From: a virus
Length of the DNA stretch: 64,000 bases
Direction: 5' to 3' (one strand)
IMG/VR virus record: IMGVR_UViG_3300022700_000069
Coordinates: 38,429 to 102,428 of that record
A program made the position numbers and the translations under genes. Below, one piece after another: positions 4,024 to 43,556 of the stretch (positions are counted from its first letter, which is position 1; every line of letters begins with the position of its first letter). The notes below the pieces were generated by a model. It did no database searches, was not told the origin of the DNA, and worked only from the letters and a program-made list of their open reading frames with translations.

Positions 4024-4033
4024 AGTATTTATA
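4024..4033 (+). promoter_or_regulatory. Late-promoter-like motif AGTATTTATA
   Basis: Exact copy of the motif 34 nt before the tail tube ATG at 4068. Confidence 0.65.
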
Positions 4034-4067
4034 ATAAAATAAATGAATATAATAAATAATATATAAT

Positions 4068-4556
4068 ATGGCAGAACTAATTAGAGGAATACCTTTTGAA
4101 TATGAACCGAAACGAACTAATAGATTCTTTGCAGAATTTTCAGATGAATTAGGTATTGAAGTTTGGAAGGTACAAAAATTTAAAAGACCAACAATGAAAA
4201 TAAATTCAATTGAAATTCCATTTGTCAACCAACAAAATTATGTTGCTGGTAGATATACTTGGGATACAATGGATATTACATTTCTTGATCCAATAGGTCC
4301 TTCAACATCTCAACAATTAATGGAATGGGTTCGATTACATGCAGAATCTCTTACTGGTAGAATGGGATATGCTGCTGGATATAAGAAAAATATTCTACTT
4401 AAAGCATTAGACCCAACCGGAATTGAAGTTGAAAAATGGTTTATTGAACAAGCAATGATTACAAATATTGACTTTGGTGATAATGATTATACTACTGATG
4501 ATTTAACGAATATTACATTAACAATACAACCTTGGAGATGTATACTCAATCTCTAA
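4068..4556 (+). CDS. Tail tube protein (gp19-like)
   Basis: 162 residues, the usual length for T4 gp19-type tube proteins. Recognisable family features are an N-terminal NRFFAEF strand, KRPTMKINSIEIPFVNQQNYVAGRYTW in the first half, the MDITFLDPIGPSTSQQLMEW segment, and a C-terminal ITLTIQPWRC. The protein forms the inner tube inside the sheath encoded upstream. The late-type motif ahead of it and a terminator behind make it a single-gene late transcription unit. Confidence 0.9.
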   Translation: MAELIRGIPFEYEPKRTNRFFAEFSDELGIEVWKVQKFKRPTMKINSIEIPFVNQQNYVAGRYTWDTMDITFLDPIGPSTSQQLMEWVRLHAESLTGRMGYAAGYKKNILLKALDPTGIEVEKWFIEQAMITNIDFGDNDYTTDDLTNITLTIQPWRCILNL

Positions 4557-43003: not shown

Positions 43004-43034
43004 TTGCATAGAATAAAAAGTTATTATATCTTTG
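43004..43034 (+). promoter_or_regulatory. Bacteroidetes-type promoter of the tRNA locus
   Basis: TTG (43004-43006), 20 nt, TATCTTTG (43027-43034). Transcription would begin about 40 nt before the first tRNA. Confidence 0.75.
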
Positions 43035-43219: not shown

Positions 43220-43253
43220 CTAAAAAAAAAATGGAAAACTGTTTGTTAATTCA

Positions 43254-43327
43254 GTACAATTAGATCAGTTGGATAGATCACAAGCCTCTTAAGTTTGAAG
43301 TCGGTGGTTCAAGTCCACCATTGTAAA
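43254..43327 (+). tRNA. tRNA-Lys (CTT)
   Basis: Ordinary cloverleaf: acceptor GTACAAT with ATTGTAA (six pairs, first pair G-A mismatched), D arm GATC-AGTTGGATA-GATC, anticodon arm CAAGC-CTCTTAA-GTTTG, 5-nt variable region, T arm GGTGG-TTCAAGT-CCACC. CCA is not encoded in register. Its normal 9-nt D-loop is a useful template for the interrupted Lys(TTT) gene. Confidence 0.85.
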
Positions 43328-43366
43328 AACCATAATTTAACAAACAAATTATTCCTTAAAATATAT

Positions 43367-43440
43367 TGCGGGATAGAGAAGTCTGGAATCTCGTCTGGCT
43401 CATAACCAGAAGGTCGAGGGTTCAAATCCCTCTCCCGCTA
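43367..43440 (+). tRNA. Initiator-type tRNA-fMet (CAT)
   Basis: The acceptor has TGCGGGA with TCCCGCT, so the 1-72 pair is a T-T mismatch, as expected for initiators that avoid a 1-72 pair. The D-stem has A11-U24 (initiator type), D-loop AGTCTGGAA. The anticodon arm is TCTGG-CTCATAA-CCAGA, variable AGGTC, T arm GAGGG-TTCAAAT-CCCTC, discriminator A. The run from anticodon arm to T loop closely resembles bacterial fMet. Only two of the three usual anticodon-stem G-C pairs are present. Confidence 0.85.
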
Positions 43441-43446
43441 CAAAAA

Positions 43447-43520
43447 GAAGAACTGTTAGTTTTTACAGTAAATTTGATGCAACTCAAAATTCTTACAAAC
43501 AAAAACTAACAAATTTCTTC
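43447..43520 (+). ncRNA. Free-standing hairpin RNA, Y-RNA-like candidate
   Basis: Long terminal stem: GAAGAA (43447-43452) with TTCTTC (43515-43520), a small internal loop (C opposite AAT), then an 11-bp perfect helix TGTTAGTTTTT (43454-43464) with AAAAACTAACA (43501-43511). Inside lies an internal loop ACAGT opposite CTTACAAAC, then a short stem (43470-43477 with 43484-43491, one A-A mismatch) and loop TGCAAC. The 5'/3'-end stem with a bulge and a large internal loop resembles Y RNAs, the usual partners of Ro60 encoded 0.7 kb downstream. It contains TTTACAGTAA like its neighbours. Confidence 0.5.
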
Positions 43521-43556
43521 TAAGTTATTAAAAAGTTCTTTAAAAAAAGATTAAAC

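Follow-up and report, generated by a model that had tools for sequence, protein, structure and literature searches.

A hairpin of 76 nucleotides (nt), encoded in a stretch of 64,000 nt of viral DNA (positions 38,429-102,428 of the 102-kb record IMGVR_UViG_3300022700_000069; hereafter the window), is likely to be a phage Y RNA, the stem of which would dock on the Ro60 protein of the phage while its tip presents an exchangeable module. The hairpin, which we assign to class S of five related RNA classes, is part of an array of RNA genes located between a DnaB-like helicase gene and a Ro60-like gene, the latter lying about 0.7 kb downstream of it. Its structure is conserved, it has the geometry of the vertebrate Ro60-binding site and it is linked to a protein with the Ro60 fold; its expression, its binding to Ro60 and its purpose are what we infer.

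Structure and conservation of the class S hairpin

The sequence-only reading of the window had proposed a free-standing, Y-RNA-like hairpin at positions 43447-43520. A hairpin was confirmed at this place, with limits one base wider on each side (43446-43521) and a minimum free energy of -19.0 kcal/mol, compared with -8.2 +/- 2.5 kcal/mol in dinucleotide shuffles (z = -4.33), none of which was as stable (0/200). The 5′ and 3′ ends pair into a long stem under a variable loop. Within this stem, a lower helix of 7 base pairs (bp) is followed by an invariant bulged C, facing three unpaired nt on the opposite strand, and then by the upper helix, which carries at its inner end a CAGU motif common to all classes. 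Above the upper helix, an internal loop and a GUAA/UUAC helix lead to an apical hairpin, the loop of which has 6 nt in the window copy; in many orthologues this hairpin consists of 5 bp capped by a 7-nt loop (CGGTAAA, CAGTAAA, CTTGAAA and others), like an anticodon arm. Neither ARAGORN nor Rfam recognised a tRNA cloverleaf in the class S hairpin, which is devoid of the tRNA-like domain (D, T and acceptor arms) present in the sister classes P, T and N. No match to a hairpin-ribozyme or group I core was seen by eye.

In vertebrate Y RNAs the bulged C is likewise found on the 5′ strand. The fold of the window hairpin has the exact geometry of the vertebrate Ro60-binding site, where a 7-bp helix adjoins a single bulged C, with a bulge of 3 nt in the opposite strand, and where removing either bulge abolishes Ro60 binding (PMC4726728). 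The Y-RNA-like architecture ascribed to the hairpin is therefore well supported.

The same shape was found in each of 39 class S orthologues in related phages. When single orthologues were folded without guidance, the C was unpaired in all 39, exactly three nt stood opposite to it in 36, and the lower helix had exactly 7 bp in 29. The claim of covariation rests on a structure-free MAFFT alignment of 36 class S rows, in which 86.5% of the cells pair in the proposed structure, compared with 37-56% when the partner is slid, and in which 36 cells are altered on both sides, compared with 13.2 +/- 4.4 in shuffles (0/500). At one pair of the upper helix, for example, G-C (19 rows) alternates with A-U (15 rows). 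The size and the stem of class S are kept across phages with Ro60 proteins about 60% identical. Furthermore, the bulge base is C in all 244 distinct elements of all classes, as found by a search that did not require a C at this position. In the five-class set the partner strand was picked by pairing, so the pairing percentages of that set lean towards pairing.

Shared domain and linkage to Ro60

The locus signature that the sequence-only reading had described (RAAC-N8-..TWCAGTA) proved to be real, and it represents the 5′ half of the structured domain, comprising the lower helix, AAC, 8-9 helix bases and TWCAGTA. With the pattern RAACYNNNNRTWWTTWCAGTAWW and one mismatch allowed, four copies were found in the 102-kb record, all of them in the array and none elsewhere, and the reversed pattern, used as a control, had no matches in this record. 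A looser pattern gave 26 matches in nine large phage records, clustered in the array wherever a record has several, and its reversed control gave none in the same records. A protein search led to two close relatives, and a DNA scan with a partial signature to more of them; in the latter, Ro60 is located downstream wherever the contig extends that far and the elements are genuine.

As an unbiased test of the linkage, a profile built from eleven Ro60-like proteins was used to locate 70 loci by the protein alone. Two to six signature copies are present within 3 kb upstream of Ro60 and on the same strand in 68 of these loci, and in the two exceptions the available sequence upstream is shorter than 1 kb. 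No copies were found antisense to or downstream of Ro60 in the 70 loci. Several of these contigs are near-duplicates, and 56 sources, including the window, hold well-paired and sequence-distinct elements. The protein profile was also run against 84,980 genomes of bacteria and archaea, where it detected no relative, and a cellular source was thus not found.

In regard to the protein itself, the presence of a Ro60 gene in the same locus, also claimed earlier, was confirmed by structure search. All ten best matches of the AlphaFold model in a Foldseek search against the PDB were Ro60/TROVE entries (E values 1.3e-5 to 2.9e-3), and VIA-align gave Z scores of 10.8-12.7 for ten Ro60/TROVE entries, compared with 8.2 for the next entry, which is a vWA-type domain alone. 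The modelled protein thus has the Ro60 fold, with a TROVE ring plus a vWA domain. The Ro60 of Thermus phage phiLo is among the ten structures matched by VIA-align, so that a phage Ro60 is already known; TROVE or Ro60-related proteins were also noted earlier in jumbo phages (PMC7824862, PMC7765460). A distant phage (LR756500) encodes a Ro60 that is 27% identical, accompanied by an ARPP-1 neighbour and by a tRNA-Leu inside a comparable stem.

Sister RNA classes and their tRNA modules

The 200 distinct elements fall into five classes (N, S, R, T and P) with a common stem, each locus holding 2-6 copies. Class R is a free hairpin resembling class S and is the one nearest to Ro60. In class T the stem encloses a whole tRNA-like module, in class P it carries a permuted tRNA, and in class N the D-loop of a tRNA-like RNA accommodates it, the domain being in rotated order and a loop closing its lower stem. 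The encoded CCA is kept in 43 of the 44 class P elements, which speaks for a tRNA-like end.

Anticodon loops of classes T and P are hypervariable, with 19 triplets among the 26 T elements and 14 among the 43 P elements, and position 33 is not U in 5 of the former and 15 of the latter; since the loops were chosen by a simple best-stem rule, individual assignments may be wrong. By contrast, the ordinary tRNA-Met found in these arrays has the anticodon CAT. Many T and P modules are therefore doubtful decoders. The anticodon of class P differs between related phages. In class T, the window copy has CTT and the related locus L001 has GCT, despite 87% identity of their Ro60 proteins, and the anticodons of this class, inspected in the window and in L033, L039 and L127, vary and include the stop-reading TTA and TCA.

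Both class N inserts of the window sit in the D-loop just 5′ of GG. At positions 879-950 of L074, a tRNA-Tyr is found without the D-loop insert that its relatives L047 and L066 have. This gene may represent a natural empty site, from which the insert was lost between AAACAC repeats.

Comparison with known Y RNAs and proposed function

The phage hairpin and the vertebrate Y RNAs share paired ends, the 7-bp helix, the bulged C, the 3-nt bulge, a variable loop and a partner with the Ro60 fold. They differ in that the RNAs described here are phage-encoded, occur several per locus, come with tRNA-like modules and show no sequence similarity visible to Rfam. Bacterial Y RNAs of the YrlA type (Salmonella and others) are also encoded beside a Ro60 homologue, and the combination of a stem with a tRNA-like module is found across the phage set as well. 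Superposition of their tRNA-like domain on tRNA involves a circular permutation (PMC11472068), and class P shows an arrangement of this kind. Unlike YrlA, the class S hairpin has no tRNA module, and the phage set joins tRNA and stem in three ways.

In regard to the possible mechanism, the array would probably be transcribed, class S together with the tRNAs, from a promoter near 43.0 kb. Of 54 loci, 41 have a promoter-like site 5′ of their first element, compared with 23 of 560 shuffles. Class S RNA could then be freed by tRNA processing, because it starts 5 nt after tRNA-Met in the window and 4-7 nt after it in 24 of the 39 copies. Its end-closing stem, in which the bulged C faces three unpaired bases, would dock on the outside of the phage Ro60, and the exposed tip would serve as the exchangeable module. 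In class S this tip is a small hairpin, which in many orthologues resembles a bare anticodon arm, and in the sister RNAs the same stem bears whole, permuted or D-loop-joined tRNA modules. The Y RNAs known so far bind Ro60 on its outer surface and can serve as tethers for partners, for example PNPase (PMC4726728, PMC8394870).

As a purpose, the phage Ro60 could form a ribonucleoprotein that gates or delivers tRNA-like decoys during a host attack on tRNAs, which we put forward tentatively. It was suggested that the tRNA-like domain of YrlA might inhibit an anticodon nuclease (PMC7790460), and phage tRNAs are thought to evade such nucleases by having altered anticodon loops (PMC10264068). A constant Ro60 stem that carries variable anticodon-like loops would fit this idea of nuclease inhibition or escape. 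The arrays of nuclease-escaping phage tRNAs likewise contain clustered tRNAs with altered anticodon loops (PMC10264068), whereas here the modules are mounted on Ro60-type stems, some of them without U33. Somewhat more doubtful still is a modular, virus-borne Ro60 system in which a single docking stem, joined in five ways (two kinds of free hairpin, one of them often anticodon-arm-like, a whole tRNA, a permuted tRNA and a D-loop insertion), would display hypervariable anticodon loops as decoys or baits against host tRNA nucleases.

Several observations speak against a phage Y RNA with such a role. The protein has no match to the Pfam TROVE family (such a match helps detection without defining Ro60), its sequence being too divergent for the model, and it was not recognised by Pfam, PHROGs or PDB sequence searches. 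The AlphaFold model is of moderate quality (mean predicted local distance difference test score 66.6, predicted template modelling score 0.54). In classes T and P the stem beside the bulged C is less regular, and the decoy role has as its sole basis the variable anticodon loops and the proposals in the literature. In addition, the Rfam Y RNA families gave no match even at loose thresholds, with only tRNA and chance matches obtained. The missing Y RNA match is expected and not decisive, since bacterial Y RNAs are described as lacking homology to the vertebrate ones (PMC4726728).

Alternative origins of the hairpin

It could be proposed that the stem is a splicing or processing element of phage tRNAs, such as an undescribed mini-intron or a self-processing RNA, with class S as its free-standing or decayed form. 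The domain does interrupt the D-loop in class N, the tRNA of class P is permuted around it, and the CCA encoded in 43 of 44 class P elements looks as if mature tRNA ends were made. However, classes S and R are conserved without any tRNA, the conserved core shows the geometry of a Ro60 site, the domain occurs only beside Ro60 and Rfam found no intron or ribozyme match, which makes such an origin improbable. We consider it equally improbable that the hairpin acts in cis, as a 3′-processing trailer of tRNA-Met, a terminator or a Ro60 leader with feedback by the protein. Such a function would agree with the short distance of class S from tRNA-Met (4-7 nt in 24/39) and with the position of every copy upstream of Ro60 on the same strand, but the hairpin is not followed by a U-tract, 15 of the 39 copies were not seen in the post-tRNA-Met position and the distance of copies from Ro60 reaches about 3 kb. 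A leader, moreover, would have no need to close whole tRNA modules, as this domain does.

The sequence-only reading had considered that the hairpin might be a collapsed derivative of the permuted tRNA, on the ground of the locus signature and the string GCAACTC. Degeneration of this kind, in which the arms were lost and the stem and a part of the anticodon arm were left, appears very improbable. The string is indeed present in the window class S and in three class P copies, but in no other class S copy (1/39), and coincidence is the simpler reading of its sharing. Across the phage group, S and P occur side by side as two distinct classes, each of them conserved, and what they have in common is the stem of the Ro60 type, not the tRNA. 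Moreover, the size and stem of class S are maintained among the phages with diverged Ro60 proteins, and decay would not yield covariation. What remains of the idea is the apical hairpin, which often has 5 bp, a 7-nt loop and a trailing AA, resembling the anticodon loops of its neighbours.

As a probable phage Y RNA, class S belongs to an unusual set of Y RNA/tRNA chimeras. No description of this class was found in the literature searched, which lay mainly outside subscription journals, and its novelty is provisional. Y RNAs and Ro60 have been investigated mostly in animals and in a small number of bacteria, and there has been little work on how viruses use Ro60. The phage family described here combines a Ro60 missed by sequence models, several Y-type RNAs in each genome and naturally occurring chimeras of tRNA and Y RNA, and as a compact system it would allow the role of tRNA mimicry by Y RNAs to be tested by module exchange. 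A phage RNA that matches the geometry of the vertebrate Ro60 site would also bear on the age of this site or on its convergence.

Array layout and neighbouring genes

Features of the array and its surroundings are listed in Table 1. The elements of the window follow in the order N, T, S, N, P, and ARAGORN together with Rfam recognised two tRNAs in the array.

Table 1. Positions of the RNA elements, parts of the class S hairpin and adjacent genes in the window.
Feature	Position	Strand	Basis or remark
Promoter-like site, Bacteroidota-type, TTG-N20-TATCTTTG, head of array	43004-43034	+	read in sequence
Class N element, tRNA-like RNA with Y-type stem within D-loop	43079-43219	+	
Class T element, whole tRNA-like module inside Y-type stem	43231-43357	+	ARAGORN tRNA-Lys (CTT) at 43254-43327
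Ordinary tRNA-Met (CAT)	43367-43441	+	ends 5 nt 5′ of class S hairpin
Class S Y-type RNA, entire hairpin	43446-43521	+	
Class S, lower helix, 7 bp	43446-43452 with 43515-43521	+	fold; 98% of alignment cells paired
Class S, bulged C, invariant	43453	+	
Class S, upper helix	43454-43464 with 43501-43511	+	
Class S, CAGU motif at inner end of upper helix, common to all classes	43466-43469	+	
Class S, apical hairpin	43473-43488 (43473-43477 with 43484-43488)	+	6-nt loop in window copy
Class S, three unpaired nt facing bulged C	43512-43514	+	fold; exactly 3 nt in 36/39 orthologues
Class N element, second tRNA-like RNA with Y-type stem in D-loop	43557-43701	+	
Class P element, circularly permuted tRNA with encoded CCA on Y-type stem	43707-43854	+	
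Ro60 gene, TROVE plus vWA fold	44188-45804	+	structure model and fold search
ARPP-1 family protein gene	45816-46913	+	adjoins Ro60, likewise in distant phage LR756500

The window appears to have lost class R, as the flanks meet where its close relative L001 has this element; the probable deletion is at 44036-44066, and L001 keeps class R at about 4028-4124. ARPP-1 follows directly 3′ of Ro60 in almost every locus with a contig long enough to show it, and it is possibly a functional partner of Ro60. RtcB had no match above the cut-off in the about eight to nine large records searched, the record of the window included, and a repair operon of the rtcBA type is therefore unlikely. An RNA ligase (PF09414) was found above the cut-off in seven of nine large records (L002, L051, L060, L081, L130, L134 and LR756500), and none was found in the 102-kb fragment of the window.

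Open reading frames resembling those of mobile elements (GIY-YIG-like and others, judged by eye) are present within the array, or between the array and Ro60, in L008, L014 and L022. In L014, L034, L039 and L052, the DnaB-like helicase match falls into two parts, between which a gap lies near residues 226-230 or 371-377, which suggests a putative intein or intron.
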